From: Sporosarcina pasteurii
Lineage (GTDB): Bacteria > Bacillota > Bacilli > Bacillales_A > Planococcaceae
Assembly (NCBI RefSeq): GCF_041295575.1
Contig: NZ_CP160452.1
Span: 1,054,001-1,118,000 of the forward strand
Length of the DNA stretch: 64,000 nucleotides
Direction: 5' to 3'
Every line of letters starts with the position of its first letter. Position 1 is the stretch's first letter. Position numbers and translations under genes: made by a program. Positions 21,475 through 52,329 of the stretch are shown here, piece after piece. The notes beneath the pieces are model-generated. The model was not told where the DNA came from and searched no databases. It was given only the letters and a program-made list of their open reading frames with translations.

Positions 21475-21640
21475 ATGCGTTTTATTTTGGCTAACTTATT
21501 AGAATTGTTGTTTAATCTTAGGAAGGGCCAAGATTAATAACCATTACTGTGGTAAAATGAGTCCATAGTATCATACTTTATCCATTGATGGGGAAATATA
21601 AGTCCAGTAGAAAATTATAAAGCAAAAGTTGGTGTATCTA

Positions 21641-33794: not shown

Positions 33795-35161
33795 CAAGCT
33801 ATACTATCCAAAGCGACCGCGTAAATCGATTAATGGGAGTAGACCTAGAACAGAAGAAATATAGTAATGGGCGTCGAGGAAGAGTACATTTACTCCCTTT
33901 TCCAACAAGAAATGATCGTACAGAATTTGAAAATGGTTTTATGCCAGTAGTTGCAGGTGCAATGCGTAAGTTATTTGGCGAAGAAATTGAGATTGAAGGA
34001 CATGCTACTCGGACAGAAGATGTATTACAAAGCATCCAATTTAGAGAAGAAACAACAGAACGAAGGTTTGAAAATTACTTAGAGAAAGAATTGCAAAATA
34101 TTTCTAGTGGACATATTCAGGATTTATCTCAATTAAAATTCATCCCATTATCTTCAGAAGAAAGGGCTAGAAAAGGGGAGCTCGATTTGGCTCATTTTGT
34201 ACATGATACGTTTTTAGCTCCCTATGCTGAAGAATTTATAGAAAAACTAAATGAATTAGAACCACAAAATATTTTGCTGAATTTACTTTCTACTGAAACG
34301 GAACAACCGACAAAAGGTGTAGATAAACTATATGGTAATCACTTACCACGTATCGTAGAGCAATTTAGAGAAGACTTTTTACTGTTGTTAAAACATCCAA
34401 GTTTTTGCATGCAGTATATTGACTTGTTATTTGTGCATTATACATACATTGTAATCACACAATTAGTCTTACAAGTAAGCCGATTCGAACAATTCAATGA
34501 GGAGAATTGGATTGATTTATATTTCTTCTATCAAGAAGAAAAAGCGGCACGTTGGAGAGATGGCTATAAGTGGGGATATCGTCGAGTTCAAACAGAGATG
34601 GCTAATTTCTTCGCCCACGAACACCTACTAAATATCGTTAGTGAAGTCAGTTTTTCAGATGAGCGTAATCTTCTTTATCATGATATTGCACAGCATTTAA
34701 AAGATGAAGAAGCAGAAGGTCAATATATTGAATCTGTAAATAAGTGGATGAAAGAAGTTTATATCCCTTTACGTGAAGTGTCACGTAATTATGAGGAATC
34801 TTCGACGCTTTCAGGCTTATTTCAAGAGATGTATGAACAAATTAAACCGAATATCTCTAATGAAATTAACAGTCGATATCCTAAAGGGCTAGATGAATTA
34901 TTCAATAAATATTTCTATAAGCACGGGGGATCGCTTGGTAAGTTAAATAGTTTGAACCAAAGCCAAGTACTCTTGCTTGTTGCAATATCTGTTGGAGAGA
35001 GTCGTTTAGAGTTAAATAGACTGTGGGATGAACTGGAAATCCGTGGTGTATACTTGGATCATAAAACTCGTGAAGTTTTTGTCGAGTTATTAGACGGATT
35101 AAATTATATCGAAAAGAAGAGTGATAGTGGAGATGCTCAATATGTCAAACCAATTTTATGA
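33791..35161 (+). CDS. dptG: DNA phosphorothioation-dependent restriction protein DptG
   Basis: This 456-aa protein is the middle member of the DptFGH set. It has no clear catalytic motif; it is helical and acidic with a C-terminal winged-helix-like stretch (LLLVAISVGESRLELNRLWDEL, then GLNYIEKKSDSGD). Its identity is based on position between DptF and DptH, length near the family norm (about 420-450) and general resemblance. ATG 33791 is spaced 8 bases from GAGGTGGA and overlaps the dptF stop; the 3' end overlaps dptH by 20 bases. Tight coupling implies a stoichiometric complex. Confidence 0.75.
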   Translation: MTSYTIQSDRVNRLMGVDLEQKKYSNGRRGRVHLLPFPTRNDRTEFENGFMPVVAGAMRKLFGEEIEIEGHATRTEDVLQSIQFREETTERRFENYLEKELQNISSGHIQDLSQLKFIPLSSEERARKGELDLAHFVHDTFLAPYAEEFIEKLNELEPQNILLNLLSTETEQPTKGVDKLYGNHLPRIVEQFREDFLLLLKHPSFCMQYIDLLFVHYTYIVITQLVLQVSRFEQFNEENWIDLYFFYQEEKAARWRDGYKWGYRRVQTEMANFFAHEHLLNIVSEVSFSDERNLLYHDIAQHLKDEEAEGQYIESVNKWMKEVYIPLREVSRNYEESSTLSGLFQEMYEQIKPNISNEINSRYPKGLDELFNKYFYKHGGSLGKLNSLNQSQVLLLVAISVGESRLELNRLWDELEIRGVYLDHKTREVFVELLDGLNYIEKKSDSGDAQYVKPIL

Positions 35162-38100: not shown

Positions 38101-40325
38101 ATTTACTTTATTTCACAGAAAGACGCGATGATTTAATCATAGTTCATTATAGTGATCAACTTAGCTCATCTCATGCGTATGATGCGATTACAGTCACAAA
38201 CAAATCAACTCAGTACGTGCAAGTCATTAAGCAGTTTTTAGAAAGTCGCGAAATCAAAACAACACAAAAGGAAATAGAAGAAACAATCAAAGCATTTAAT
38301 GTGTTTAATGGTGAATGGTTACTACGTGCTATTCAAAATAAGTCTCATGATCAGCGCGAAAAGATGAGTGTTTTGTCTGCAGTCAAGCTCTCGCTCAAGT
38401 ATTTTAAAGAAAAAGCACCAGAGGTTACTTGGATTCCTATCTCTATGGAAGAAATTGTACGGGTTTCTAATGCGATTCAATTAAATAAAAAAGATGGGCT
38501 ATTCTCTGGGAAGACAATTGGTCGGAGTGGAAACTGTAGTGACGACTTACTAATGATGGGCTTTAAAGTGGATGAACAAGATCAATTGATTCTATATCTT
38601 TACCCGATTGAAGTGAAAATCGGGCATAATCAATCAGGTGTCATTGATAAAGGGATTAGCCAAGTAAAAGAACTGAATCATCGTCTGAAAGAAGTATTAA
38701 ATGAATCTACATTTGATGCAAAATTTATGCGACACTTTTTCGCTCAGCGAATGATTACGGTCGCTCAAAAAATGGAACAACAACAGTTTTGGATTGACCA
38801 AGTTTGGATAACGGAACAGATTTCGCATCGATTATTAAATGGCGATTTTACAGTTGCTATTAATGGTTTACCTTCGTTTGGTGAAGGTGCTATATTCTCA
38901 TTTAAAAAAGAAGAAGTTAGCGAGAATAGTTCACGTATAGATAATGTGTTAGTTCTTGCTTATCCAGAGCAAATGGGCTATGAATGGTTAGCGAAGTCGA
39001 TGGATGAAGTTATGAAGTTCGATATGAAAATTGAGCTGGAAGTAGAAAATACTAAGAAACGTGAAGAATATTCACCGGAACAACCAGTAAAAGAATCATT
39101 TGAGCAAGCAAAACCTTCTGTCATGAATGAACAAGACATAGACAAAAGGGAAGAAGATGTTAAGACTCAGCAAGTGAAAGAAAAAACAGCTACTACACAA
39201 CCCCTAGTAGAAAAAGGTAAAGATAATTTTTCACGACCGTTAATTGGATATACACAATATGATTTGGCGCGACACTGGGAATTTGGTCATAAAGAATTAC
39301 CAAATCGCCATCTCTTAATCGGTGGACGTAGCGGACAAGGAAAGACATACTTTATACAGTCACTCCTAATGGGGTTAAGTTCAGCAAATCAGCCTTCACT
39401 AGTAATCGATTATTCTAGTAGCTATACAAAGACTCAACTTGAAGAAGACTTTGTGGCACATTTAGGAGATAGGTTGGTAGAGCATAGTGTGTACCGAGAC
39501 AAGATTCCAATCAATCCATTTGCAAGAAGAACACGTATTGTTTCAGGAAAAGAAGAACTTGAACCGATTGTTGAGACAGCTGGGCGCGTAATGGAAGTAT
39601 TTGCTTCTGTTTATAGATTGGGACCTCAACAAGAAATGGTGTTATATCGTGCGATTAAAAGTGGGATTGAAAATCATGGAAGCCAAATGACGATGAGCTT
39701 GCTTGAAGAAGAATTGTATAGCTTAGAAGGAGCATCCAAATCGGTTGTAGGTTCATTATTATCACGGCTCATTCAATTTATTCATTTAGATCCATTTAAT
39801 TATTCGACGGAACATAAATGGGACGATTACTTCCAAGATGATGGTCAAGTAACAATTGTTCAATTAGATGGATATTCACAAATAGAAATAAAGAAAATAT
39901 TAACGGAGTTCATATTATGGGACTTATGGTATTTTCGTTTGAGTAAAACTGAAGAAAACCCTATGGCAATTGTTTTAGATGAAGCACAAAACTTAGCATT
40001 CGGTGAAGGTACTCCAGCAAATTTAATTTTACGTGAGGGTAGAAAGTTTGGTTGGTCCGCATGGTTTGCTACACAGACTTTCACAAACTTCTCATCTGAA
40101 GAATTATCAACATTGCAAGGTGCGGCAACGAAAGTCTTTTTCAACCCTGCGGAAAGTGAAGTTTCCAGTATCTCTCGCAATTTAGGTGGAGACTATCAAG
40201 AGGCTTTGCGTAAATTAGTCAAAGGTCAATGTTTAATAACTGGCCAATTTATGGAGGAGGACGGCACTTTAAGTCAATCACAAGTTTATGTGGTAAGCGT
40301 ACCTCCTATGAACCAAAGAAATTAA
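35142..40325 (+). CDS. dptH: DNA phosphorothioation-dependent restriction protein DptH
   Basis: This is the large (1727-aa) ATPase of the restriction complex. The C-terminal 370 residues form an FtsK/HerA-type motor: Walker A IGGRSGQGKT near residue 1395, Walker B MAIVLDEAQNLAF near 1610, and a conserved ATQTFTNFSSEELSTL segment after it. Around residues 1130-1160, CSDDLLMMGF followed by YPIEVKIGH has the spacing of a PD-(D/E)xK nuclease core, a candidate for the cutting activity. The linker 1310-1360 is Glu/Lys/Gln-rich. ATG 35142 is 9 bases from GGAG; GTG 35121 lacks a site. Length agrees with the family (about 1,700). Confidence 0.8.
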   Translation: MSNQFYEYIAEQLVVFFKKQSSNQKIGRYYLQLPSIETSEILYEALKIEEASSAFFYQHEKGNERYETIALTYQGYKFVIAIVNESITSSFLVTLRNAMSLQQGEWKNASLILLTSNLQDSIKDGSINLTHEGMPLHVEQFIGSLEKMIELQVKNPMSRRIIKHFLESREREYALENTTFLDFEEVLNIANKEEITTEDYRELHYFPDDELRQLLSEQETLPVKSRAWNQKEKEIQHRLNKNTELHHDIEQTREQGSAREELEARFGAGRRDLEPKSNPDKDKWYETDLTKILNWEEDIKNTTKIELINDDIKCVNKHIELWKRPNATTAAGLRTWHLIAFVSPEEEAQEIEVRIPFSQRLKKEHILSRAQSYTNTSGKNLVITAKVEEGADFYRSVYRHEGKTPYTFNLLVLKSTSEPFESIRHHYKIQTGQRANYAIELQIDHQHFQLGTGTEREVAIKENEQVIVSDLDETLKLEIEPSASTDDHSVKCFIQTPSFTVPIVVKDEALRILPKTAHQIWVEKFEKQQSIELIEDDSKAIIQDYLYTTHLNERKYFKLEERWAKKKWAYGKYEDSNLEAITLAIPDSVKEAYHAYLEAVEEQGTIHSFTFYDEALREKAEMYVEAFLTEIENIEVDSILQDEVRNLMKLGRIDINDELIFTSYAPLNVAYQLELQKTINGEDIDRNTIERMQNSHFAPLIVEEGITYKPVVHDRMSEWTIYRPSDEVNVGESNLYLAQLVQEKIEQFYEYYPYLFTISGNTPLRISIVNIPDDREIVKGLLNMYLKEVKKGKELHALRPIEISAYTRGYHVSHFEIFQQMENYEEVEHYFQGLSFNNKYDIPRDVFYQLQRLIRYSVHSIEDQIKYAHLSFYKMDGKSEVVQQKTQDLPDSLALNGLLTSPTSQLTEEGGYRIGFGTGGHRVNKENLLEKSILKWNEYVANMMTNGLNPYNKDIALSTRVHALNEQLLEDLYKQTNWVTFINPEVDLLYFTERRDDLIIVHYSDQLSSSHAYDAITVTNKSTQYVQVIKQFLESREIKTTQKEIEETIKAFNVFNGEWLLRAIQNKSHDQREKMSVLSAVKLSLKYFKEKAPEVTWIPISMEEIVRVSNAIQLNKKDGLFSGKTIGRSGNCSDDLLMMGFKVDEQDQLILYLYPIEVKIGHNQSGVIDKGISQVKELNHRLKEVLNESTFDAKFMRHFFAQRMITVAQKMEQQQFWIDQVWITEQISHRLLNGDFTVAINGLPSFGEGAIFSFKKEEVSENSSRIDNVLVLAYPEQMGYEWLAKSMDEVMKFDMKIELEVENTKKREEYSPEQPVKESFEQAKPSVMNEQDIDKREEDVKTQQVKEKTATTQPLVEKGKDNFSRPLIGYTQYDLARHWEFGHKELPNRHLLIGGRSGQGKTYFIQSLLMGLSSANQPSLVIDYSSSYTKTQLEEDFVAHLGDRLVEHSVYRDKIPINPFARRTRIVSGKEELEPIVETAGRVMEVFASVYRLGPQQEMVLYRAIKSGIENHGSQMTMSLLEEELYSLEGASKSVVGSLLSRLIQFIHLDPFNYSTEHKWDDYFQDDGQVTIVQLDGYSQIEIKKILTEFILWDLWYFRLSKTEENPMAIVLDEAQNLAFGEGTPANLILREGRKFGWSAWFATQTFTNFSSEELSTLQGAATKVFFNPAESEVSSISRNLGGDYQEALRKLVKGQCLITGQFMEEDGTLSQSQVYVVSVPPMNQRN

Positions 40326-40670: not shown

Positions 40671-40697
40671 TTGACAAATATAAAGAGACAGTATAAT
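40671..40697 (+). promoter_or_regulatory. sigma-A-type promoter of the BCCT transporter gene
   Basis: TTGACA (40671-40676) and TATAAT (40692-40697) are perfect hexamers with a short 15-base spacer. The GntR-type operator begins 11 bases downstream of the -10 box, so a bound repressor would block the start region. Confidence 0.65.
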
Positions 40698-40707
40698 CTG
40701 AAAAAAA

Positions 40708-40726
40708 CTTGTATGGTACATGCAAG
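40708..40726. promoter_or_regulatory. probable operator of the FCD-type GntR regulator, site 1
   Basis: CTTGTATGGTACATGCAAG is a near palindrome. The core TTGTATGGTACATG recurs at 42557 and 49532, and a variant TTGTACCATGGTACATG at 42621. All four stand just before genes of the catabolic set, one of which encodes a GntR regulator. Binding is inferred, not shown. Confidence 0.6.
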
Positions 40727-40881: not shown

Positions 40882-42495
40882 ATGACCAAAAATTATTGGC
40901 GTCATATTAGGGAGAAAGTAGACTGGCCAGTATTTCTTTTGAGTGGTGGGGCACTCGTAGCGTTTGTGCTTTTATCGTTTTTACATGTCGATATGGTAAG
41001 CAAATACGTCAATATCGGTTTTGACTTGTCAATCCGTTATTTCGGTGCGTACTGGCAACTATTAATGATTGCAACTTTTGCAGTAGGTGCTGTGTTAGCC
41101 GTTTCGAAATATGGGAAAGTTCGGCTTGGAAATACGAATAAGCATGAAATAAGTTATTTTAAATGGGTCGCGGTCATCATTACAACTGGCCTCGGAGCAG
41201 GTGGTGTATTCTGGGCTGCGGCAGAGCCAATGTACTATTTTTTGGAAGTTCCGCCAATGCATAAGGGTATCCTTGCTGGAACGAAGGAGGCGATTGGCCC
41301 TGCACTTGCACAAAGTTATATGTCATGGGGGTTTACAGCATGGTCTGTGTATGGGGCCATTAGTGCAATAATATTAATTTACGCACATAATCATAAAGGA
41401 ATGCCATTAAAGCCTAGAACATTGTTGTATCCAATATTAGGAAAAAAGATTTTAACAAGCAAGTGGGGAACGGCTGCGGATGTATTTTGTATTATTGGTG
41501 CAGCGGCAGGAACAATTGGTCCAATCGGTTTTCTTGGTTTACAAGTGAGCTATGGAGTCAGCTCGGTATTTGGAATACCCGACGTATTCAGCACACAGGT
41601 CCTCATTATTGTTGGTCTGACAGCGGTTGTTTTAGTGTCGACCTTAACTGGGATTAATAAAGGGATTCAGTGGTTAAGTAAGCTAAACGTGAATATGATT
41701 GTAGTTATTGCGGTATTTTTGTTAATTTTTGGTCCGGGCATGTTCATTATAGATTCTTTCATGTCATCATTCGGAATGTATATGAGTGAATTCATCAACA
41801 TAAGTACATTTCGCGGTGATGAGGCATGGCTTGGTTATTGGATGCTTTTTTTCTTTGGTTGGTTTATTGGTTTTGGTCCGCTCGTTGCTTTGTTTGTGGC
41901 AAGAATTTCAAATGGGCGTAAAATTAGAGAAATATTTCTTGTCGTAGCAATCATTGCTCCGATTACGACAAATTTTTGGTTTACAGTTTTAGGTGGGACG
42001 GGAATCTTTTATGAATTGGGCAATAGGGGATCGGTAAGTGGTCCATTATTGGACGGGGGATTGCCGAGCGCAATTATCGCTATTGCCGAACAAATGCCGC
42101 TTGGATTTATTATGCCGACAGTCTTTCTCGTGTTAACGACTCTTTTTGTTGTGACAACTGTTGATTCAATGTCTTATTCCATTTCGATGGGGGTTACTGG
42201 TGATGGAAATCCGCCAAAAATAGTTCGTGTATTTTGGGCGTTAATTATGGCTGTAATTGCAACGATACTTATTAAAATCGGCGGGGGAGGAATTAGTGCA
42301 TTACAATCATTTATCGTCGTCGCTGCTGTTCCAATCTCCATTTTGATGTTGCCAATTCTTTGGTACGCGCCGAAAATAGCAAAGCAATTAGCGATTGAAC
42401 AAGGTATTGTAGAAGAAAAGGTAGACCTAAGTCCATCGACAATTAGCGAAGCAACTGCATCAACGGAAGTCGAAGTAAAGGGAACAAGGAGATAG
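40882..42495 (+). CDS. BCCT-family betaine/carnitine/choline-type transporter
   Basis: This 537-aa secondary transporter of the betaine-choline-carnitine family has 12 membrane helices. The glycine-rich unwound helix GLGAGGVFWAAAEPMYYF and the later aromatic-box segment around DEAWLGYWMLFFFGWFIGFGPLVA carry the Trp residues that bind trimethylammonium-type groups. ATG 40882 follows AGGGGGAAT; the longer frame from 40831 has no site. It has a consensus promoter and a GntR-type operator upstream. Its link to the downstream enzymes suggests uptake of a zwitterionic quaternary amine used as a nutrient rather than osmoprotection, which is inference. Confidence 0.85.
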   Translation: MTKNYWRHIREKVDWPVFLLSGGALVAFVLLSFLHVDMVSKYVNIGFDLSIRYFGAYWQLLMIATFAVGAVLAVSKYGKVRLGNTNKHEISYFKWVAVIITTGLGAGGVFWAAAEPMYYFLEVPPMHKGILAGTKEAIGPALAQSYMSWGFTAWSVYGAISAIILIYAHNHKGMPLKPRTLLYPILGKKILTSKWGTAADVFCIIGAAAGTIGPIGFLGLQVSYGVSSVFGIPDVFSTQVLIIVGLTAVVLVSTLTGINKGIQWLSKLNVNMIVVIAVFLLIFGPGMFIIDSFMSSFGMYMSEFINISTFRGDEAWLGYWMLFFFGWFIGFGPLVALFVARISNGRKIREIFLVVAIIAPITTNFWFTVLGGTGIFYELGNRGSVSGPLLDGGLPSAIIAIAEQMPLGFIMPTVFLVLTTLFVVTTVDSMSYSISMGVTGDGNPPKIVRVFWALIMAVIATILIKIGGGGISALQSFIVVAAVPISILMLPILWYAPKIAKQLAIEQGIVEEKVDLSPSTISEATASTEVEVKGTRR

Positions 42496-42517
42496 TTTAA
42501 AAGATTCTAAATATTTG

Positions 42518-42546
42518 TTGACATTTAAAAGTAATGATATTACACT
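42518..42546 (+). promoter_or_regulatory. sigma-A-type promoter of the regulator/catabolic operon
   Basis: TTGACA (42518-42523), a 17-base spacer and TACACT (42541-42546). The expected start is near 42553, directly before the operator at 42557. Confidence 0.6.
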
Positions 42547-42556
42547 AACGTTAGAC

Positions 42557-42578
42557 CTTGTATGGTACATGGTACATG
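42557..42578. promoter_or_regulatory. probable GntR operator, site 2 (tandem)
   Basis: CTTGTATGGTACATGGTACATG contains the site-1 core with an extra GGTACATG half-site in tandem, overlapping the predicted transcription start. Confidence 0.6.
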
Positions 42579-42620
42579 AAAAATAAGGAAGTTAGTGGGA
42601 GATTAATAGGTTACGAATAT

Positions 42621-42639
42621 TTGTACCATGGTACATGGC
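42621..42639. promoter_or_regulatory. probable GntR operator, site 3
   Basis: TTGTACCATGGTACATGGC is a more symmetric variant (GTACCATGGTAC palindrome) between site 2 and the regulator gene. Two sites before the regulator suggest autoregulation, possibly by looping. Confidence 0.55.
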
Positions 42640-42656
42640 ACTTTTATTAGAAAGGG

Positions 42657-43346
42657 GTGTTTACCATTACGAGTATTTTGACAACGAGTATTACGGCCCA
42701 AGTAACTGATGCGATCCGCACAGCTATCATTACGGGAGAATACGAACCTGGAAAGCAATTATCTGAAGCTGCTTTATCGCAGTATTTTAAAATAAGCAGG
42801 ACTCCGGTGAGGGAAGCGTTAAAGCAATTAGAACGAGAAGGGCTAGTGGAAATCATTCCACGAGTTGGAACATGTGTATTAAAACCGACTGAGAAAGAAT
42901 TAGATGAGCTATTTACAGTAAAGGAAGCGATGGAAGGGCTTGCAGCGGGAATACTTGCTGAAAAAGGAGATTTGAAAGTAATAGGTAAAGTACGAGAAGC
43001 TGTATCTTTCATGGAAGAAGCCGTACAGAAAAAAGATCATAATAAATTCGTCGAAGCGAATAATCTTTTTCACCAGGCAATCATGGACGGTGCTAATAAT
43101 TCCAAGCTGAGTTATGTGTTCAATTTACTGATTAATCAAATACCTTATAATCGCTATGTTTATCTAAGTATTGAAGTTCCAAATCGTCTAGAAATATCAC
43201 TGAAAGAACATCAAATTATTTTAGAGGCAATTTTAAGTAAGGACCGAGAAAGAGCTGAAAAAGCGATGAGAGAGCACGTTAGAGAAAGTGCGATTGGACT
43301 AAAAAAAGCAATTGCCAAAAGACTTTACCAAAAGACCGCAAAATAA
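42657..43346 (+). CDS. GntR-family (FadR/FCD subfamily) transcriptional regulator
   Basis: This regulator of up to 229 aa has an N-terminal winged helix (TAIITGEYEPGKQLSEAALSQY, then ISRTPVREALKQLEREGLVE, residues about 15-80) and an all-helical FCD ligand domain (residues 90-220). The FCD metal/ligand histidines are in NNLFHQAIM, LKEHQIIL and MREHVRESA. The start is uncertain: GTG 42657 overlaps the AAAGGGG box, and TTG 42678 is 20 bases away. It probably represses the BCCT gene and the operon that follows until an intermediate binds the FCD domain. Confidence 0.85.
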   Translation: MFTITSILTTSITAQVTDAIRTAIITGEYEPGKQLSEAALSQYFKISRTPVREALKQLEREGLVEIIPRVGTCVLKPTEKELDELFTVKEAMEGLAAGILAEKGDLKVIGKVREAVSFMEEAVQKKDHNKFVEANNLFHQAIMDGANNSKLSYVFNLLINQIPYNRYVYLSIEVPNRLEISLKEHQIILEAILSKDRERAEKAMREHVRESAIGLKKAIAKRLYQKTAK

Positions 43347-43361
43347 GGGGGAATAATAATT

Positions 43362-44510
43362 ATGAAGTTCGGAATATTCGCTAACTTGGCAGGGCCAGGT
43401 CGCCATGAGGAGTACGATAAAGTATTAGATGAAGCACGGGAGCAAGCGGTTTACTGTGATGAAAACGGTTACGACTCCATTTGGTATACAGAACACCACT
43501 TCGGTCATGAGGGGAATGAGTTGATTTCGAATCCTCTAATGATGGGAGTAGATATCGCCGCTCGAACAAAGAATATTCGAATCGGTCAGGCTGCAAACGT
43601 CGCAACATTTTGGCAACCGCTTCGTTTAGCGGAAGATATCGCAATGTTAGATCAGTTAAGCAAAGGGCGAGTAGAAGTCGGGTTAGCTCGCGGACTATAT
43701 GGTCGTGAGGCTGCTAATTTAAATGCGCTGGCAGATCCGAAAAATAATGATCAGAATCGCGCATTATTTGAAGAAACTGTGGAAGTAATGAAAAAGGCTT
43801 GGTCAAATCGTTTCTTTTCACACGATGGAGACATTTATCAGTTTCCACCTGAAGGCCTAAAGTGGACTCATCCTATGAGCCCTCAATCACCAGAGTTTAT
43901 GGACATGGAAAAAGGGGAAATCAATAAAATTTCAATCATGCCAAACACTTACCAAGGTCGAATGCCAAATTTATGGCAAACAATCGACTCCCCAAGTTCA
44001 ATCAAAATTGCTGCTGAAACCGGTATTAATGCTATTTTCTGGATGCCGACAGTGAAAGAGTTAAAAGGACGTTTTGAATTATATCGTGAAACAGCTTCGA
44101 AAGCGCGCGGCTATGAAGTTCCTCTTGGCGAAGGAATTGCGCTTGTACGTGATGTGTATGTAGCAGAAACGATGGAACAGGCTCGGGAAGATGCTGCTGA
44201 AGCAGTACTAAACACATATCGCTGGATTTGCCATTGGAGAGGGCTTGGTAATCTGATGGACCCAGGTGAAGAAGTAAAAGTCGGCCAAGAGTTAACATAT
44301 GAATTCCTTCACCCAAGAAACTTATTATTCGGAACACCGGAATATGTAACAGAAAAAATTCAAGAATTAAAAGAAGAGTTGAATTTACAAAATCTATTAC
44401 TTTGGAAAAATCATAGTCATTTACCACACGAAAAAGTGATGAACAGCTTAAAGCTATTTACAGAAGAAGTAATGCCAAATTTCACTAAAACAAAACAGGG
44501 GGTATTGTAA
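43362..44510 (+). CDS. LLM-class flavin-dependent monooxygenase (luciferase-like)
   Basis: This 382-aa TIM-barrel oxygenase uses reduced FMN delivered by a separate reductase (probably the one encoded at 51814). It opens with MKFGIFANLAGPGRHEEYDK and carries YDSIWYTEHHFGHEG (flavin and substrate side) and LAEDIAMLDQLSKGRVEVGLARG, the standard luciferase-like signature. ATG 43362 follows AAGGGGGAAT, 15 bases after the regulator. In the pathway model it makes the ring-opening oxygenation, like TgnA or RutA. It is a single complete domain. Confidence 0.85.
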   Translation: MKFGIFANLAGPGRHEEYDKVLDEAREQAVYCDENGYDSIWYTEHHFGHEGNELISNPLMMGVDIAARTKNIRIGQAANVATFWQPLRLAEDIAMLDQLSKGRVEVGLARGLYGREAANLNALADPKNNDQNRALFEETVEVMKKAWSNRFFSHDGDIYQFPPEGLKWTHPMSPQSPEFMDMEKGEINKISIMPNTYQGRMPNLWQTIDSPSSIKIAAETGINAIFWMPTVKELKGRFELYRETASKARGYEVPLGEGIALVRDVYVAETMEQAREDAAEAVLNTYRWICHWRGLGNLMDPGEEVKVGQELTYEFLHPRNLLFGTPEYVTEKIQELKEELNLQNLLLWKNHSHLPHEKVMNSLKLFTEEVMPNFTKTKQGVL

Positions 44511-44511
44511 A

Positions 44512-45090
44512 ATGTTAGAAATTCGTAAAGTATATACAGCTATTGAAGAAACGCGTATTGAGGGAGGCAAACAACTCGAAGACCCAATTAAGATGATTAC
44601 AACGATGTTAGTAATGAAAAATCCATGGGTTGAAAGAGGATTTGTTGAGGATTTAATGCCGGAAATTAACGAGTATGCTCCTGAAATTGGAGAGTTGCTA
44701 GTTGCAGAGTTGTTCAAGCATATCAGCTCAGCAGATGATGTTGAAGCATTCGGTAAAGCTGCGGTCGTCGGTGTAGACGGAGAAATGGAGCATGCTTCCG
44801 CCTTCATTCATACATTGAAGTTTGGAAACAAGTTCCGTGATGCGGTTGAAGGGAAAAGTATCTTGCCATTTACAAACAAGCGTGGAGGCGCAGGAACGGC
44901 AGTTTTAATCCCAATGGTCCACAAAAATGAAGATTCGAAACGTTCACACTTCTTGACGTTTGAAGCGACAATTCCAGATGCGCCGAGGGCTGATGAAATT
45001 GTTGTTGCAATCAGTGTTTCGACAGGAGGACGTCCGCACCCAAGAACGGGAGACCGTCACCAAGACATGCTGGAAATGGGTCTCGTCTAA
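44512..45090 (+). CDS. DUF1185 (AA_synth) family protein
   Basis: This 192-aa cytoplasmic protein is recognised as the DUF1185/amino acid synthesis family by MITTMLVMKNPWVERGF, the VVGVDGEMEHASAFIH segment and the C-terminal SVSTGGRPHPRTGDRHQDM. The family is found in catabolic clusters with luciferase-like oxygenases, but its reaction is unknown to me. The conserved Glu/His/Asp residues suggest a hydrolase- or lyase-like activity. It starts 2 bases after the oxygenase stop and overlaps the next gene by one base. Confidence 0.75.
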   Translation: MLEIRKVYTAIEETRIEGGKQLEDPIKMITTMLVMKNPWVERGFVEDLMPEINEYAPEIGELLVAELFKHISSADDVEAFGKAAVVGVDGEMEHASAFIHTLKFGNKFRDAVEGKSILPFTNKRGGAGTAVLIPMVHKNEDSKRSHFLTFEATIPDAPRADEIVVAISVSTGGRPHPRTGDRHQDMLEMGLV

Positions 45091-45902
45091 TGCCAAAGAT
45101 TACGTATGGTCAAAAGACCATTCATTATGAAGAAAAAGGAACGGGTGAACCGCTCGTTTTCATACATGGAGTCGGTTTGGATCATGCAATGTGGGAGCAA
45201 CAGGTGAATAGTTTGTCAGAATATTATCGAGTAATTGTGTATGACATGATAGGACACGGGGAATCTTCGCATCCCCCTGGTCCTTATTCACTTTCTAAGT
45301 ACGTTGAACAACTTGCTGCACTCGTGGAAAGTCTAAGTCTCGAAAAGATTCACCTTGTAGGATTTTCAATGGGAGGCATGGTTGCCCAGGCATATGCATT
45401 GTCAAATTCGGCGAAAATGAAAACGCTAACAATTATGAATGCAGTTGCGAATCGGACAGAAATGCAACGCCAAGCGATATTAAAACGGGTGGAAGAAGTA
45501 AGGGCAAACGGAGCTCATTCGACAATTGAACCTGCAATCCAACGTTGGTTTACAACCGACTATCTGCAAAATCAAGCAGACGTCGTAAATCGGATTCGTA
45601 CTCGTCTTCAGACTAATAATCCTGCTTCTTATTTAGAAGCATATTCGTTGTTTGCGACAGCCGATCAAGAACTTTGGGATAAACTAGATCAAATCACAGT
45701 TCCGACACTCGTCATTACGGCAGAAAATGACGTCGGTTCCACACCAGAAATGTCACAACAAATTCATCAGAAAATTTCTGGTTCTGAATTGTTAGTAGTT
45801 CCTGTCTTAAGACATATGCTTCCGATTGAAAGACCTGATATTATCCACGAGGCAATTCACTCATTTATTGAAAGAGCAGTGCTTGTAGGGGAAGGGAGAT
45901 GA
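45090..45902 (+). CDS. alpha/beta hydrolase
   Basis: This 270-aa alpha/beta-fold hydrolase has the nucleophile elbow GFSMGG near residue 92-97, the oxyanion HG in FIHGVGLD, the acidic residue in ITAENDVGS near 213, and the catalytic His in LRHMLPIERPD near 240. It is closest in style to 3-oxoadipate enol-lactonase/RutD-like enzymes. In the pathway model it would open a lactone or cleave a product of the oxygenase. Its ATG overlaps the previous TAA (TAATG), so it is translationally coupled. Confidence 0.85.
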   Translation: MPKITYGQKTIHYEEKGTGEPLVFIHGVGLDHAMWEQQVNSLSEYYRVIVYDMIGHGESSHPPGPYSLSKYVEQLAALVESLSLEKIHLVGFSMGGMVAQAYALSNSAKMKTLTIMNAVANRTEMQRQAILKRVEEVRANGAHSTIEPAIQRWFTTDYLQNQADVVNRIRTRLQTNNPASYLEAYSLFATADQELWDKLDQITVPTLVITAENDVGSTPEMSQQIHQKISGSELLVVPVLRHMLPIERPDIIHEAIHSFIERAVLVGEGR

Positions 45903-45906
45903 GGTT

Positions 45907-47403
45907 TTGACAGAATTAAAAACTGAGCTTAAAACTTTCGATATGTATATTAATGGGGAATGGACAGCATCGTCAAGTGGAGAGTATTTTCCAAGTTATA
46001 ATCCAGCAACGGGAGAGGCTTGGGCACGTGTAGCAAAAGGAACAGCTGAAGATGTAAATCGAGCAGTGCAAGCTGCACATCAAGCGTTTGTAAATTCTGA
46101 GTGGACTAATATGACTTATACGGAAAGAGGAAAACTTGTCAGGAAACTCGGCGATCTCATTGCTGAAAATGTGGAAGAACTTGCACAGTATGAGACGATT
46201 GACAACGGAAAATTGATACGAGAAATGCGTGGTCAATTAAATTACTTGCCGGAATTCTTCTACTATTACGCAGGTCTTGCCGATAAAATTCACGGTCATA
46301 CGCTTCCTTTGGATAAACAGGATATGTTTGCTTTTACAACGAGGGAACCCCTTGGCGTTGTAGCTGCAATTACACCTTGGAATTCACCGCTTTATTTAAC
46401 GACATTGAAATTAGCGCCCGCACTTGTGGCTGGAAATACAATTGTGATAAAACCATCAGAAATGACATCCGCTTCTTTGCTTGAACTTATGAAGTTAGTG
46501 GAAGAAGCTGGCTTCCCGCCTGGTGTTGTTAACGTAGTGACAGGTTTTGGATTACCAGTTGGTGATACATTGACAGCACATCCACTCGTTAGACGTGTTG
46601 CTTTTACTGGAGGAGCTGAGTCTGCTCGCCATGTCGTAAGAAATACAGCAGAGAACTTCGCACAATTATCACTAGAACTCGGAGGAAAGTCGCCAAACAT
46701 TGTCTTTGAAGATGCGGACCCTGATAATGCAGCGATGGGAATTATTGCCGGTATATTTGGTGCCACTGGCCAAAGTTGTGTTGCTGGATCACGAGCATTT
46801 TTACACGTAGATATTTATGACAAGGTGATGGAAAGACTTGTTGACCGTGTTTCAAACATAATGATTGGTGACCCTCTTTCGGACACTACTGAAATGGGAC
46901 CGCTTGCTACAGAGGAACAATTGAAACGTGTTGAAAAGTACGTAAAGCTCGGGAAAGAGGAAGGCGGAAAAATCATAATCGGTGGTAAAAAGCCTGAACA
47001 CTTAGAAAAAGGATGGTATTTTGAACCGACGATATTCGAACATACTGACAATAACGCGCGTATTACAAGAGAAGAAATCTTTGGTCCTGTTTTAAGTGTC
47101 ATCCCATTTAAAAATGAGGCTGAAGTAATTGAGATGGCAAACAGTACTGACTATGCATTGGCGGCTGGAATTTGGGCGAGTGATATAGCAAAAGCCCACC
47201 GTGTGGCCAAGGCGATTAGAGCAGGTATTGTTTGGGTGAATACCTACCGGAGCATATCGCCTATTGCACCAATCGGAGGTTCCGGGTTAAGCGGGTACGG
47301 AAGAGAAAGCGGTTTTGATGCAATTTATGAATATACTCAAAGTAAAGTAGTTTGGGTGAATACATCATCTGAAGCGATACCTGATCCATTCATTATGCGC
47401 TAA
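45907..47403 (+). CDS. NAD(P)-dependent aldehyde dehydrogenase, first of two
   Basis: This 498-aa ALDH oxidises an aldehyde to the acid. The general base Glu is in LELGGKSPN (about residue 260), the nucleophilic Cys in GQSCVAGSR (about 291), the cofactor-binding lysine in IVIKPSE, and the ALDH Glu signature REEIFGPVLSVIPF is near 395. The TTG start (45907) follows GGGAGATGAGG, five bases after the hydrolase stop. By analogy with tgn clusters it may oxidise the ring-cleavage aldehyde. Confidence 0.88.
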   Translation: MTELKTELKTFDMYINGEWTASSSGEYFPSYNPATGEAWARVAKGTAEDVNRAVQAAHQAFVNSEWTNMTYTERGKLVRKLGDLIAENVEELAQYETIDNGKLIREMRGQLNYLPEFFYYYAGLADKIHGHTLPLDKQDMFAFTTREPLGVVAAITPWNSPLYLTTLKLAPALVAGNTIVIKPSEMTSASLLELMKLVEEAGFPPGVVNVVTGFGLPVGDTLTAHPLVRRVAFTGGAESARHVVRNTAENFAQLSLELGGKSPNIVFEDADPDNAAMGIIAGIFGATGQSCVAGSRAFLHVDIYDKVMERLVDRVSNIMIGDPLSDTTEMGPLATEEQLKRVEKYVKLGKEEGGKIIIGGKKPEHLEKGWYFEPTIFEHTDNNARITREEIFGPVLSVIPFKNEAEVIEMANSTDYALAAGIWASDIAKAHRVAKAIRAGIVWVNTYRSISPIAPIGGSGLSGYGRESGFDAIYEYTQSKVVWVNTSSEAIPDPFIMR

Positions 47404-47433
47404 ATCATGCTAAATAGGAAGGGAGAAATCGAC

Positions 47434-47736
47434 GTGACTATCGAAAAATTGATTCACTTACCGGATTTATCCTTCATTCGTGTATGTAACGAAGACTATG
47501 GCATAAATAGAGGACTCTATAATACAATTGATAAATTCTTTTACGAACGAGGATTTGAACGAATTATCGATCGAAGAAAGAATATCCTTTACTTTCTCGA
47601 CTATGTTCAAAAGGATGCTGATTTAAATAATAAGCGCCCCAAATTTGGAAGTGGCGGGCTAAAGATTAAAATCGAGGAATATCTATTGGAGATAGAAAAA
47701 AATAATAATCATAAAATGTGGCAATTAGCTAAATAA
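47434..47736 (+). CDS. hypothetical 100-aa protein within the catabolic operon
   Basis: GTG 47434 lies 8 bases after AGGAAGGGAG, better than ATG 47407, which precedes that box. The product is a basic mixed alpha/beta protein (LIHLPDLSFIRVCNEDYG, then ERGFERIIDRRKNILYFLDY). I recognise no family. It is compact in the operon between two aldehyde dehydrogenases, with 24 bases to the next start, so it may be a small subunit or a binding protein of this pathway. Confidence 0.5.
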   Translation: MTIEKLIHLPDLSFIRVCNEDYGINRGLYNTIDKFFYERGFERIIDRRKNILYFLDYVQKDADLNNKRPKFGSGGLKIKIEEYLLEIEKNNNHKMWQLAK

Positions 47737-47760
47737 GCCTATATAGGAAGAAGGTTAATC

Positions 47761-49206
47761 ATGACGAAGCTTAATACTAATGTAAAGAAACAACATCTTC
47801 TTATTAATGGAGAGTGGGTCGCGGCGGAGGAATACAGTCCGCTTCAATCTCCATATTCAGGTGAAGTTATCGCGGAGGTCCCGTTGGCTTCAATTGCTGA
47901 AACTGATTTAGCAATTGAAGCAGCTGTAAATGCCCGAAAAGTGATGGCGAGTATGCCCGCTTATAAACGTGCGGAAATCTTGGAAAACCTCGTTCATGCT
48001 TTGCAAGAAAGAGCTGAAGAAGCAGCTGAAATTATTGCATTAGAAGCAGCAAAGCCGATTACGACAGCAAGGGGTGAAGTTAGTCGTACGATTGAAACGT
48101 ATAAGTTTGCAGCTGAGGAAGCAAAGCGCATTCATGGTGAAACACTTCCACTTGATGCGGCTCGCGGCGGTGAAAATCGACTAGCTTATACGGTACAAGA
48201 ACCAATCGGTACCATTGGCGCAATTACACCTTTCAATTTTCCGATGAATTTAGTTGCCCATAAAGTTGGTCCTGCTATAGCAAGTGGGAATACAATCGTC
48301 TTAAAACCAGCTACACAAACACCGTTATCCTCATATTTTATTGCGGAACTTCTTCTTGAAGCAGGATTGCCAAAAGGAGCCCTAAACGTAGTTACTGGAA
48401 GCGGCAAGGTGACGGGAGACAAACTTGTTCAGGATAGCCGAATCAGCATGATAACTTTCACGGGAAGCCCAGAGGTGGGCATCGAAATCCGAGGCAAGGC
48501 TGGCTTGAAAAAAGTTACTTTAGAACTTGGATCCAATGCAGCAGTAATTGTTGATAAAAACGTCGATCTTGATAAAATTATCCCGCGTTGTGTAACAGGG
48601 GCATTCGCTTTCCAAGGTCAAGTATGTATTTCCTTGCAACGCGCATACGTTCATGAAGATATTTATGAAGAGTTTGTAACTAAACTTATTGAAGAAACGA
48701 AAAAGTTAGTTGTCGGAAATCCCCTTGATGAACTAACAGATGTATCAGCACTTATTTCAGCGAAGGATGTAGAGCGGACACAAAGTTGGATAGAAGAAGC
48801 GAAAAAACAAGGAGCAAAAGTTGTAGCAGGCGGTAATACAGAAGGAAATATTCTTTATCCAACGATTATTCTGGAAGCAAAATCTACGCTGAAAGTATGT
48901 TGCAATGAAGTGTTTGCTCCGATTATTGTTGTAAATAAAGTGAAAAACGTCGAGCAGGCAATTGACCAAGTGAATGATTCACGTTATGGATTGCAAGCAG
49001 GAATCTATACAAATGATATTACTACAGCGCTGAATGCAGCAGAAGAGTTGTATGTTGGCGGAGTAATGATTAACGATATTCCAACATTCCGGGTGGATAA
49101 TATGCCGTACGGCGGTGTAAAGGAAAGCGGAACAGGCCGTGAAGGTTTGAAGTACGCGATTGAAGACATGACTGAGATGAAACTCGTAGTTTGGAACCGT
49201 AATTAG
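47761..49206 (+). CDS. aldehyde dehydrogenase, second (semialdehyde type)
   Basis: This 481-aa ALDH has the Glu in LELGSNAAVI near residue 258, the Cys in GQVCISLQR near 289, the NAD(P) loop FTGSPEVG near 235, and the C-terminal PYGGVKESGTGREGLKYAIEDM. The LELGSN variant and overall style resemble semialdehyde/lactaldehyde-type dehydrogenases of Bacillales. It would finish degradation, for example succinate- or malonate-semialdehyde oxidation (as TgnE), which is inference. ATG 47761 follows AGGAAGAAGG. Confidence 0.87.
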   Translation: MTKLNTNVKKQHLLINGEWVAAEEYSPLQSPYSGEVIAEVPLASIAETDLAIEAAVNARKVMASMPAYKRAEILENLVHALQERAEEAAEIIALEAAKPITTARGEVSRTIETYKFAAEEAKRIHGETLPLDAARGGENRLAYTVQEPIGTIGAITPFNFPMNLVAHKVGPAIASGNTIVLKPATQTPLSSYFIAELLLEAGLPKGALNVVTGSGKVTGDKLVQDSRISMITFTGSPEVGIEIRGKAGLKKVTLELGSNAAVIVDKNVDLDKIIPRCVTGAFAFQGQVCISLQRAYVHEDIYEEFVTKLIEETKKLVVGNPLDELTDVSALISAKDVERTQSWIEEAKKQGAKVVAGGNTEGNILYPTIILEAKSTLKVCCNEVFAPIIVVNKVKNVEQAIDQVNDSRYGLQAGIYTNDITTALNAAEELYVGGVMINDIPTFRVDNMPYGGVKESGTGREGLKYAIEDMTEMKLVVWNRN

Positions 49207-49217
49207 GAGGTAAAGGG

Positions 49218-49484
49218 ATGGGGTATTATGCGGCACTATTACACATGATGGATGCTGAGAAAAATGCTGAAGTTCTTCCTCGTCATATCGCTTATTTGGA
49301 AGAATTAGAAGCGGAGGGAAAAGTGTTTGCAAGAGGCCCCTTTACAGATGGAACGGGCGGCCTTATTGTCTATATTGCTGATTCTTATGAAGAGGCTTTG
49401 GCATTCGCAGAGGCAGATCCACATGTTGTTGAGGGAGTACGGCGACTAGAGCTAAAAGAGTGGGGAGCACTTACAGTTAAATGA
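49218..49484 (+). CDS. YciI family protein
   Basis: This 88-aa dimeric alpha-beta barrel-like protein carries the typical YciI pattern: RHIAYLEELEAEGKVFARGPFTDG, then IVYIADSYEEALAFAEADPHV. YciI-like proteins are putative lyases or dehydrochlorinases using a His-Asp pair; here the conserved His (RH near residue 22) and Asp (ADPH near residue 71) are present. ATG 49218 is 7 bases from AGGAGG. It ends the first part of the operon and is followed by an operator-like site. Confidence 0.8.
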   Translation: MGYYAALLHMMDAEKNAEVLPRHIAYLEELEAEGKVFARGPFTDGTGGLIVYIADSYEEALAFAEADPHVVEGVRRLELKEWGALTVK

Positions 49485-49531
49485 ATTGTAGCAATAAAAC
49501 GTATTTTTTTGGAGATGTTTTTCACTAAAAT

Positions 49532-49550
49532 CTTGTATGGTACATGGTAA
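49532..49550. promoter_or_regulatory. probable GntR operator, site 4
   Basis: CTTGTATGGTACATGGTAA repeats the core of sites 1 and 2 and lies 16 bases before the hydrolase gene. It implies an internal regulated promoter for the hydrolase-permease-reductase group; I could not identify convincing -35/-10 boxes. Confidence 0.6.
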
Positions 49551-49565
49551 TTTGGAGGTGTGAAA

Positions 49566-50231
49566 ATGGATGTGAAAAACACTGCTTTACTTTTAATTGA
49601 CCTTCAAAAGGAAGGCGGGACGTCGGACGTCGTTGGCATGGATGGAATTATTGAAAAAACAGCAAGTCTTATAGAGCAATGTCGACAAAAAGGAATCCCA
49701 GTCATTTATACGCGCCATTTAAACAGGGGTGATGGTATTGCACTTGGGAATCGGGAGCCGGTGAATGAAAAAGGGGAACCTCTTTATTATCATACAGGAA
49801 CTGATGCAATTGAAATCATGGATGAAATTAAGCCTGAGCCTGGTGATATTATCGTTGATAAGTATAGGTATAGCTGTTTTCATGAATCCAGCTTGGATTT
49901 GATGTTAAAGAGTTTAGGAATAAAGCATTTGATCATTGGCGGTGTTTTGACAGACGTTTGCGTAATTTCAACAGCGATGGATGCTTATTATCGTGATTAT
50001 CAAATTAATCTCGTTAAAGACATATGCGGTACAACAACTGAAGGTGCCCATATGGCAGCAATTCTAATGATGGCGAATTGGGTTTATGATATTGAAATCT
50101 ATGATGCAAATCAACTTAGCAACAAGTTATCGGGAGAAGATTATAAAGTATGGAAATCTGAGGGACCTGATGAGTTACAATTTACACCTGAAAACTTACG
50201 TGAAGTTTTTGGAAGATTGACAGTTGAGTGA
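49566..50231 (+). CDS. isochorismatase-like cysteine hydrolase (amidase type)
   Basis: This 221-aa amidohydrolase has the catalytic triad Asp in LLLIDLQKEG (about residue 13), Lys in IIVDKYRYSCF (about 98) and Cys in GGVLTDVCVISTAMD (about 135), with the usual cis-peptide before it. The group includes ureidoacrylate amidohydrolase RutB and N-carbamoylsarcosine amidase. Here it may cleave the amide or formamide made on ring opening. ATG 49566 is 7 bases after GGAGG (49554-49558), better than GTG 49560. Confidence 0.85.
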   Translation: MDVKNTALLLIDLQKEGGTSDVVGMDGIIEKTASLIEQCRQKGIPVIYTRHLNRGDGIALGNREPVNEKGEPLYYHTGTDAIEIMDEIKPEPGDIIVDKYRYSCFHESSLDLMLKSLGIKHLIIGGVLTDVCVISTAMDAYYRDYQINLVKDICGTTTEGAHMAAILMMANWVYDIEIYDANQLSNKLSGEDYKVWKSEGPDELQFTPENLREVFGRLTVE

Positions 50232-50297
50232 CATCTTGAGGACTACTACACGACGCTTTCTGTAACAATTCTAATTCAAATAAAAGGGGAAAAAAAT

Positions 50298-51740
50298 ATG
50301 AAAGCTGCAGAAAAAGTAGAAGCAAGTATCGAGGTAGAGGCTTTTGACCAAGTTGTTAGTGGCCAAGATGTAGTCACAGAAGAACATTATGCGACCGAAG
50401 AAGTTCCAATGAGTCAACGAAATATTAATTTTTTTGACATGATAGCGATCTGGGTAGGGGCAAACTCAAACAATGCGTCCTGGTATGTAGGGGGAACGGT
50501 AGCTGGGATGGCTTTTGCAGGTGCCATTGCAGTCACGTTAATTTCCAATCCCTTTGCCTATCTTGTACTTGCTCTTGTTGGGTACATGGGTTATAAAGTT
50601 GGGACGTCCACCATGGCACTCACAAGACCAGCTTTCGGAATTAGGGGAAGTCTTCTCCCAACGGTGTTAAATACGATTGTCTTTTTAGGATGGGCTGTTG
50701 TTAATACGTTTATAGCTGTCATTTCGATGAGTTTTATATTAAAAGATTTATTTGGATGGCCGGCTTTTGGGGAGCCGGGAAGTGCGGGTCCAATGATTTT
50801 AGGTATTGTTTTCATGAGCTGCTTGAATTTATCTGCGGTTTCACTGGGAAGAAATTCTATTAAAATAGTTGAAAGAATCGGGATTGTTTTAGTCCTTGCA
50901 CTAGGTATTTGGATTACGATTGTCGTTTTGAGCACGCATTCATTTTCAGCAATTTTGAGCTGGAGGCCACCTGCCGAATCGGTAATGCCTGTCGGAAAAG
51001 CGGTAGATATTATGGCTGCATTTAGTTTAGCGTGGGTGCTAGGAATTGCCGAGTTTACACGTTACACACGTTCAGCGAAAACAGCAACAGTTGCCCCGTT
51101 AATCGGTGCTTGCGTTTCACTCATGTGGTTTGCGTTTATCGGCATTATCGCAACAATCGGTTCAGCAATTACGACAGGCGTTTACAATCCAGAGAATTCA
51201 GATCCAAGTTCACTCGTTACAAATCTTGGGCTTGGCTGGTTTGCGCTACTACTTATTGTCGTAGCATGTGTGACAACAAATGTCGTCAATTTGATGGCTG
51301 CGGGTATTTCAATAACGAATGTAACAAAGAAAATTAAACCGCTTCACTCTATATGGCTCGTCACAGTTTTAGCTGGTGTATTCATGCTTGTGCCACTTTA
51401 TCTTGCTAGTTTCTTAGATACCTTTATGGGCTTTTTAGAATATATCGGTATGGTACTGAGTGCGTTACTTGGCGTGTTAGTTGCCGATTATTACTTTGTT
51501 AAAAAGCGCTCCTATGATGTAAAGGAATTTGAAAAAGTAGGCGGGAAATATTGGTATACAAAAGGAATTAATATAAGAGCAGTAGCAGTTTGGACATTCG
51601 GAGTCATATTCTTTTTATTGGTTCGTGACTCTGCCTTGTTAGGAAGTTCAATTGGTGCTGTCTATCCAACCATTTTGATAACTGCATTGCTCTATACGCT
51701 AATCTCAATGCCAAGGGGAAAAACTTCTAAATTATATTAA
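50298..51740 (+). CDS. NCS1-family permease (cytosine/allantoin/hydantoin-type)
   Basis: This 480-aa nucleobase-cation-symport-1 protein has 12 helices. NINFFDMIAIWVGANSNNAS (residues about 43-62) is the conserved NCS1 opening helix region, and MALTRPAFGIRGS and FLGWAVVNTF are also typical. An acidic N-terminal tail of 35 residues precedes helix 1. ATG 50298 follows AAAGGGGAAAAA. NCS1 carriers take up purines, pyrimidines, hydantoins, allantoin or pyridoxine-like rings, supporting a nitrogen heterocycle as pathway substrate. Confidence 0.85.
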   Translation: MKAAEKVEASIEVEAFDQVVSGQDVVTEEHYATEEVPMSQRNINFFDMIAIWVGANSNNASWYVGGTVAGMAFAGAIAVTLISNPFAYLVLALVGYMGYKVGTSTMALTRPAFGIRGSLLPTVLNTIVFLGWAVVNTFIAVISMSFILKDLFGWPAFGEPGSAGPMILGIVFMSCLNLSAVSLGRNSIKIVERIGIVLVLALGIWITIVVLSTHSFSAILSWRPPAESVMPVGKAVDIMAAFSLAWVLGIAEFTRYTRSAKTATVAPLIGACVSLMWFAFIGIIATIGSAITTGVYNPENSDPSSLVTNLGLGWFALLLIVVACVTTNVVNLMAAGISITNVTKKIKPLHSIWLVTVLAGVFMLVPLYLASFLDTFMGFLEYIGMVLSALLGVLVADYYFVKKRSYDVKEFEKVGGKYWYTKGINIRAVAVWTFGVIFFLLVRDSALLGSSIGAVYPTILITALLYTLISMPRGKTSKLY

Positions 51741-51813
51741 TTAAAGAGAATCGGTACTTATTCAATGCCTGTTGTCGGATTTATAAATATGAATGAAAAA
51801 GGAGAGAGCTATT

Positions 51814-52329
51814 ATGCAAAAAGTAGAGAAACAAGACTTATTCAAGCAAATTATGGGGAATTATCCAACAGGTGTGACGGTTGTAACGACAACTGGAGCA
51901 GATGGCAAGCCAGTCGGATTGACAGTGAATTCTTTTGCTTCCGTATCATTAGATCCGCTTATGTTGCTATGGTCTATTGATCATCGTGTATCGTCATTGA
52001 AGGAGTTTATAGAAGGTGGAAAGTTCGCGGTACATGTTTTACATGGTCATCAACAAGAACTTTGTAAAACGTTTGCAAGTAAAGTTGAAGATCGTTTTAG
52101 CAACTGTGACTGGAGTTTTTCTGAAAATAATTTACCGATTATCGATGGTACATTTGGGGTTTTTGAATGTAAAACGTTCAAAGCAATTGAGGCTGGGGAC
52201 CATACCGTTTTAATTGGTGAAGTAATTGACCTTCAAATTGATCAGAGCAATGATCCAATGCTTTACCATCGCAGAGTGTTTGGACCAATTCCGGAAGAGT
52301 TTTATAAGCAAAAACAACCAGTATCATAA
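51814..52329 (+). CDS. flavin reductase (two-component monooxygenase partner)
   Basis: This 171-aa protein is of the flavin reductase-like FMN-binding family (HpaC/RutF/TgnB type). The family pattern is clear: GNYPTGVTVVTTTGADGKP, then LTVNSFASVSLDPLMLLWSI (flavin contact) and FAVHVLHGHQQELC. It would supply FMNH2 to the luciferase-like oxygenase at 43362. ATG 51814 is 8 bases from AAAGGAGAG; the upstream ATG 51793 lies before that box. It is the last gene of the set and is followed by a terminator. Confidence 0.85.
   Translation: MQKVEKQDLFKQIMGNYPTGVTVVTTTGADGKPVGLTVNSFASVSLDPLMLLWSIDHRVSSLKEFIEGGKFAVHVLHGHQQELCKTFASKVEDRFSNCDWSFSENNLPIIDGTFGVFECKTFKAIEAGDHTVLIGEVIDLQIDQSNDPMLYHRRVFGPIPEEFYKQKQPVS

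Follow-up and report, generated by a model that had tools for sequence, protein, structure and literature searches.

Twelve consecutive genes in a 64,000-nucleotide stretch of the Sporosarcina pasteurii chromosome (positions 1054001-1118000; hereafter the window) probably form a regulon, controlled by GntR, for the breakdown of an N-methylated pyridinium carboxylate (pyridine betaine), whose ring would be opened between C5 and C6 by an oxygenase dependent on reduced flavin mononucleotide (FMNH2). The host is a soil and water bacterium with a single-contig genome of 3.30 Mb, and its near relatives belong to Sporosarcina. The predicted chemistry is like that of the trigonelline (tgn) operons but with an oxygenase of a different lineage, conserved from Bacilli to SAR11, and with a putative regulator of flavin supply; otherwise this appears to be an ordinary catabolic operon.

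Gene content and shared operator

All twelve genes are intact and lie on the + strand between 40831 or 40882 and 52329 of the window, as judged from open reading frame (ORF) calls and Pfam and NCBIfam profiles. They encode, in order, a BCCT transporter, a GntR/FCD protein, a luciferase-like monooxygenase (LLM; PF00296), a PF06684 protein, an alpha/beta hydrolase, a first aldehyde dehydrogenase (ALDH1), a 109-aa protein, a second aldehyde dehydrogenase (ALDH2), a YciI protein, an isochorismatase-superfamily protein, an NCS1 transporter and a flavin reductase (Table 1). Profile matches and motifs thus bore out every gene that an earlier note, made from the letters of the window, had named between 40882 and 52329. 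Gaps in the main unit are 1-75 bases, with an ATG/stop overlap at 45090, and AGGGGGAATAAG precedes the BCCT start at 40882, which makes that start plausible.

The catalytic motifs are intact in ALDH1 (Cys in GQSC, Glu in ELGG), ALDH2 (GQVC and ELGS), the hydrolase (GFSMGG) and the isochorismatase-superfamily protein (D-K-C). The last of these best matches biuret hydrolase, RutB and N-carbamoylsarcosine amidase; we rejected nicotinamidase, as the best matches lay elsewhere and no clear metal-site motif was seen by eye. An AlphaFold 2 model of the PF06684 protein (predicted local distance difference test score, 91.7) matches structures 3byq and 2qtp. An amidohydrolase akin to cyanuric acid hydrolase was rejected for this protein, since Foldseek was significant only for PF06684 structures.

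A 15-base operator, CTTGTATGGTACATG, has three perfect copies in the genome, all in the cluster, before the BCCT, GntR and isochorismatase genes; the expected number of copies of the 14-base operator core in the window is 0.07. At the BCCT gene (TATAAT, 40692-40697) and the GntR gene (TACACT ending at 42546), the operator starts exactly ten bases past a -10-like hexamer, a spacing expected of a repressor site. Across the Bacilli, manual counts place the core ATGGTACAT ahead of the GntR gene in 26 of 31 loci, of BCCT in at least 10 and of the isochorismatase gene in 9 of 10. Because the operators are perfect, are spaced in this way and have a core conserved upstream across Bacilli loci, the BCCT gene, the GntR-to-YciI unit and the isochorismatase-NCS1-reductase unit are very probably co-regulated as one regulon, which would place the oxygenase and flavin reductase pair (PF00296 and PF01613) under common control; the GntR protein is the predicted binder of CTTGTATGGTACATG. 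A one-mismatch site at 765460 lies inside a gene and was taken as chance. The grouping of the twelve genes is not chance, since about 30 Bacilli loci from different genera share this order and the operator is restricted to the cluster.

Table 1. Genes and regulatory sites of the cluster, in window coordinates.
Feature	Position	Strand	Basis or remark
Operator copy 1, CTTGTATGGTACATG	40708..40722	+	upstream of BCCT
BCCT transporter, likely uptake of betaine substrate	40882..42495	+	PF02028, 464 bits; longest ORF from 40831
Promoter-like site TTGACA-N17-TACACT	42518..42546	+	position and operator spacing only; scan total not above shuffles
Operator copy 2	42557..42571	+	upstream of GntR; second ATGGTACAT overlaps at 42569, third ATGGTACAT at 42628
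GntR/FCD repressor	42657..43346	+	PF00392 and PF07729
LLM, FMNH2-dependent oxygenase type 1, predicted TgnB-like ring-opening role	43362..44510	+	PF00296, 164 bits
PF06684/DUF1185 protein, TgnF family, accessory	44512..45090	+	Pfam; AlphaFold 2 model; TgnF link
Alpha/beta hydrolase (PcaD-like), predicted TgnD-like role in N-formyl/enamide hydrolysis	45090..45902	+	PF00561; 31.9% to R. etli tgn-type hydrolase
ALDH1, predicted TgnC-like role	45907..47403	+	51.6% to R. etli tgn-type ALDH; tree
RibR C-terminal-like domain, 109 aa, proposed FMN-riboswitch antagonist	47407..47736	+	flavokinase fusion in relative
ALDH2, accessory, Bacilli only	47761..49206	+	36% to R. etli succinate semialdehyde dehydrogenase (SSADH), under SSADH cut-off
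YciI family protein	49218..49484	+	PF03795
Operator copy 3	49532..49546	+	upstream of isochorismatase gene
Isochorismatase-superfamily amidohydrolase, Asp-Lys-Cys triad	49560..50231	+	PF00857 and motifs
NCS1 transporter	50298..51740	+	PF02133
Flavin reductase, predicted TgnA-like role	51793..52329	+	PF01613; 38.7% over 137 aa to R. etli tgn-type reductase

Distribution and kinship with trigonelline operons

The earlier note had called the cluster unlike any in Bacillales, which does not hold. When a single genome of each species was scanned (323 LLM relatives, 80 retained), the core LLM-PF06684-hydrolase-ALDH1, which we call type 1 after the LLM lineage and operon of the window, was conserved in the Bacilli loci at 69-93% LLM identity. 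The same core is present in Actinobacteria related to Streptomyces (LLM about 62%), with two PF06684 copies, a reductase, GntR and NCS1 or BCCT, and in Pelagibacteraceae/SAR11 (LLM about 58%), abundant ocean bacteria in which it is the only PF06684/LLM cluster. The Bacilli have added ALDH2, YciI, isochorismatase and the RibR-like gene, though not at every locus, and several sister clusters have BCCT in place of isochorismatase and NCS1. No SSADH-like gene was seen in the type 1 clusters of Actinobacteria and SAR11. A plasmid search with the window LLM returned only relatives of 32-37% identity, uninformative on function, and a viral scan for PF06684 found nothing. In the SAR11 loci (L074, L078 and others; about 4-10 kb), the type 1 core runs divergently to genes for a Pot-like ATP-binding cassette (ABC) transporter, an M24 peptidase-family protein and an arylmalonate-decarboxylase-like protein.

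The PF06684 (DUF1185) family includes TgnF of Acinetobacter baylyi, which stimulates the TgnE step (PMC7913881, on coumarin degradation). Searching Pseudomonadota for this family revealed a second operon type with genes for GntR, PF06684, hydrolase, reductase, LLM and ALDH. These are followed in A. baumannii by NCS1, a porin-like protein and SSADH, in A. venetianus by a cytosine permease in a stretch without SSADH, and in Rhizobium etli and on Sinorhizobium meliloti pSymA by spermidine-type ABC transporter genes and SSADH; the pSymA operon adjoins nodL/noeA. Because trigonelline catabolism has been mapped to the symbiotic plasmid of S. meliloti, we take this second type (type 2) to be tgn. The rhizobial operons (L215, L216; on symbiotic or other plasmids) have a NIPSNAP gene where Bacilli have YciI.

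The comparison was made through the R. etli set, which stands in for the A. baylyi TgnA-F sequences. Identities to the window proteins are 57% for PF06684, 52% for ALDH1, 39% over 137 aa for the reductase, 36% for ALDH2 against SSADH, 32% for the hydrolase and 24.7% for the LLM. In trees the type 1 and tgn-type LLMs form two deep separate clades, and with this identity the window oxygenase does not qualify as an orthologue of the tgn-type LLMs. The tgn-type hydrolases split from the rest, whereas the ALDHs intermix by taxon and do not separate cleanly by type. All six TgnA-F families nevertheless have a counterpart in the cluster, although ALDH2, which scores under the SSADH cut-off, is no clear TgnE orthologue; the genuine SSADH of the genome lies elsewhere (1192991-1194331).

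The gene families, the operon and regulon structure, their conservation and the relation to tgn-type operons are established at the level of sequence. The earlier proposal that a zwitterionic and probably N-methylated heterocycle is broken down by tgn logic emerged stronger than it had been stated, and BCCT, NCS1 and Pot-like ABC are the transporter families of the tgn-type operons of Acinetobacter, Rhizobium and relatives. The window and the tgn operons of A. baylyi, other Acinetobacter, Rhizobium and Sinorhizobium share reductase, LLM, ALDH, hydrolase and PF06684 families, GntR and NCS1, ABC or BCCT transport. They differ in gene order (LLM-PF06684-hydrolase-ALDH in the window, PF06684-hydrolase-reductase-LLM-ALDH in the tgn type), in the RibR-like, ALDH2, YciI and isochorismatase genes that are extra in the window, and in the lack of a clear TgnE in its cluster. 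DUF1185, YciI and a "100-aa unknown" had been named in the earlier note as part of an unfamiliar combination; all are present, but DUF1185 is the TgnF family and the unknown is a 109-aa domain of apparent RibR type.

The rut pyrimidine pathway, whose ring-opening logic had also been invoked, has LLM, isochorismatase, alpha/beta hydrolase and flavin reductase superfamilies in common with the cluster. Here the suggestion failed: the models for RutB (81 of 378 bits), RutD (90 of 239) and RutF (78 of 255) stayed far under their cut-offs, the RutA model matched none of the cluster proteins, RutC is missing, and we rejected identity with the Rut pathway at the model cut-offs.

Mixed operons also exist (L182, L184, L189, L208), in which hydrolase, ALDH and PF06684 are nearer type 1 and the LLM, in L189 and L208, is about 50% identical to the tgn type; L208 carries BCCT. 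These operons possibly represent a third substrate class. Elsewhere, tandem PF06684 genes accompany a molybdenum hydroxylase and an amidohydrolase, or a PnrA-like ABC transporter (L175, L177), and PF06684 may serve further heterocycle pathways.

The RibR-like protein and its proposed link to FMN supply

The 109-aa protein has 20 relatives in sister clusters (alignment). It gave no Pfam or NCBIfam match, and hence lacks a PF01687 flavokinase half; its AlphaFold model is helical, and PDB and Foldseek searches returned no useful match to a solved structure. In Neobacillus vireti (L018), a 245-aa protein joins a PF01687 riboflavin kinase (residues 20-139) to a homologous C-terminal domain. The same two-domain layout, kinase plus C-terminal domain, is that of Bacillus subtilis RibR, and the 109-aa protein appears to resemble the C-terminal half of this FMN-riboswitch regulator. 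RibR acts against FMN riboswitches and thereby allows expression of the rib operon when FMN is high (PMC7693651).

Two FMN riboswitches (RF00050, above cut-off) are present in the genome, before a RibU-like transporter and before ribD-E-BA-H. In sister clusters, the position of the 109-aa gene is taken by a RibB-RibK fusion or by PF03358 FMN reductases. A second RibR-type C-terminal domain (138 aa; genome region 1003001-1016000) lies beside a 458-aa DmoA/NtaA-type LLM and metNPQ-like (methionine-type) ABC genes, and an LLM gene is found within about 5 kb of a RibR-type domain in 13 of 19 sampled Bacilli places, some of them sister clusters. Given the flavokinase fusion, the RibB-RibK and FMN reductase genes, the riboswitches and this proximity, the 109-aa protein probably raises the FMN supply for the oxygenase. 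Its setting parallels that of RibR, with the relatives' domain C-terminal to a flavokinase, FMN-dependent LLM genes nearby and riboswitches at rib and ribU-like genes; unlike B. subtilis RibR, it stands alone, and in a betaine or heterocycle operon instead of a sulfur operon. The RibB-RibK fusion (PF00926 and PF01687) lies at 14643-15638 of locus L038, in a catabolic cluster, and occurs in five other Bacilli loci.

Candidate substrates, proposed pathway and genomic surroundings

On trigonelline, the tgn route cuts between C5 and C6 to leave an N-formyl group and a CH2-CHO end. By analogy, the same cut on homarine (N-methylpicolinate) would leave an identical CH2-CHO end, with the carboxylate at C2. 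We infer the chemistry, the substrate and the action of each protein as follows. BCCT and NCS1 would import the pyridine betaine, and the flavin reductase would give FMNH2 to the luciferase-like oxygenase, which would cut the ring between C5 and C6 to an N-methyl-N-formyl enamine with a terminal aldehyde. ALDH1 would oxidise this aldehyde, and the hydrolase, aided by the PF06684 protein, would free formate and the nitrogen part. Trigonelline would then yield succinate semialdehyde and methylamine, and homarine N-methylglutamate, or 2-oxoglutarate and methylamine. Meanwhile, the RibR-like protein would hold open the FMN riboswitches at ribU and the rib operon during synthesis of the FMN-demanding oxygenase.

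The sequences leave homarine and trigonelline undecided, with a slight lean to homarine, because the enzymes that would meet the carboxylate (oxygenase and hydrolase) diverge most from tgn whereas the ALDH acting on the common CH2-CHO end is conserved. Homarine is our tentative first candidate. It would make the cluster a relative of a homarine catabolism pathway that was reportedly described in 2026 (Ferrer-Gonzalez et al., Nat Microbiol 11:1531). A passage of PMC13390433, through its reference 55, mentions such a pathway as conserved "in environmental bacteria" and as including N-methylglutamate dehydrogenase. By this description, it is possibly the same chemistry on the regioisomer. Homarine would suit SAR11, with type 1 as its single PF06684/LLM cluster, and would require no SSADH. 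We dropped the missing SSADH as proof of homarine, since SSADH is likewise missing from the A. venetianus tgn-type stretch, and the lack in type 1 clusters is therefore weak evidence. The hom genes are said to occur in roseobacters, yet type 1 LLMs were absent from 298 genomes sampled in the family of a probable roseobacter. That absence, together with that of the type 2 oxygenase from 300 Bacillota genomes, is what two solutions to one task would be expected to leave, and trigonelline is nearly as likely a substrate. Type 1 would then be what Gram-positive bacteria and SAR11 have in place of tgn, with an oxygenase that is not orthologous and with ALDH2 or the chromosomal SSADH as TgnE. The representation of all six Tgn families, the genuine SSADH and the many soil-dwelling hosts agree with this, but the low LLM and hydrolase identities, the separate clades and the clusters of Actinobacteria and SAR11 without an SSADH-like gene do not.

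Another N-heterocycle (hydantoin, pyrimidine, N-methylnicotinamide or a non-methylated pyridine carboxylate) is unlikely: NCS1 does adjoin the isochorismatase amidase, and PF06684 elsewhere accompanies molybdenum hydroxylase and amidohydrolases, but NCS1 also serves tgn-type Acinetobacter operons, several sister clusters do with BCCT alone of these genes, and the Rut models score too low. The LLM family includes SsuD, DmoA and luciferase, and the other RibR-domain paralogue adjoins a DmoA/NtaA-type LLM; oxidation of a sulfonate, sulfide or aldehyde is still highly improbable, as the cluster has no sulfur transport or regulator genes, its partners are the tgn set and a betaine transporter is present. 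Several points weigh against a tgn-like regulon for a pyridine betaine as we propose it. With its LLM only 25% identical to the tgn type, the ring substrate may be another one; the pathway does not account for ALDH2, YciI and isochorismatase; the RibR homology is drawn from domain architecture, not from alignment with the B. subtilis RibR sequence itself; and homarine is mainly marine, which fits poorly with the many type 1 hosts from soil.

More speculatively, and in our view rather doubtfully, the cluster could represent a third pyridine-betaine pathway, distinct from both tgn and the published hom and common to SAR11, Bacilli and Actinobacteria, with an oxygenase lineage recruited apart from TgnB. 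In Bacilli this pathway would be tied to vitamin B2 control through a stand-alone protein that, when the substrate demands it, overrides FMN riboswitches.

Directly upstream of the cluster lies a complete DptF-DptG-DptH (DndFGH) restriction module (31572-40325 of the window); no DndBCDE model matched among the neighbouring genes scanned. The same defence island holds a 907-aa TrlF/Ppl-type anti-phage protein (25480-28203), followed by a 645-aa protein that neither PADLOC nor, above cut-off, NCBIfam matched. A protein at 21629-22717 is weakly similar to AbiO/Nhi helicase-type defence models.

For Gram-positive bacteria and SAR11, where trigonelline and homarine serve as nutrients, the cluster offers a candidate route of pyridine-betaine degradation, and two very distant oxygenase lineages would feed the same downstream enzymes. 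A more general association is suggested as well, in which stand-alone RibR-type domains travel with FMN-consuming LLMs and apparently lift FMN riboswitch control when flavin demand is raised.

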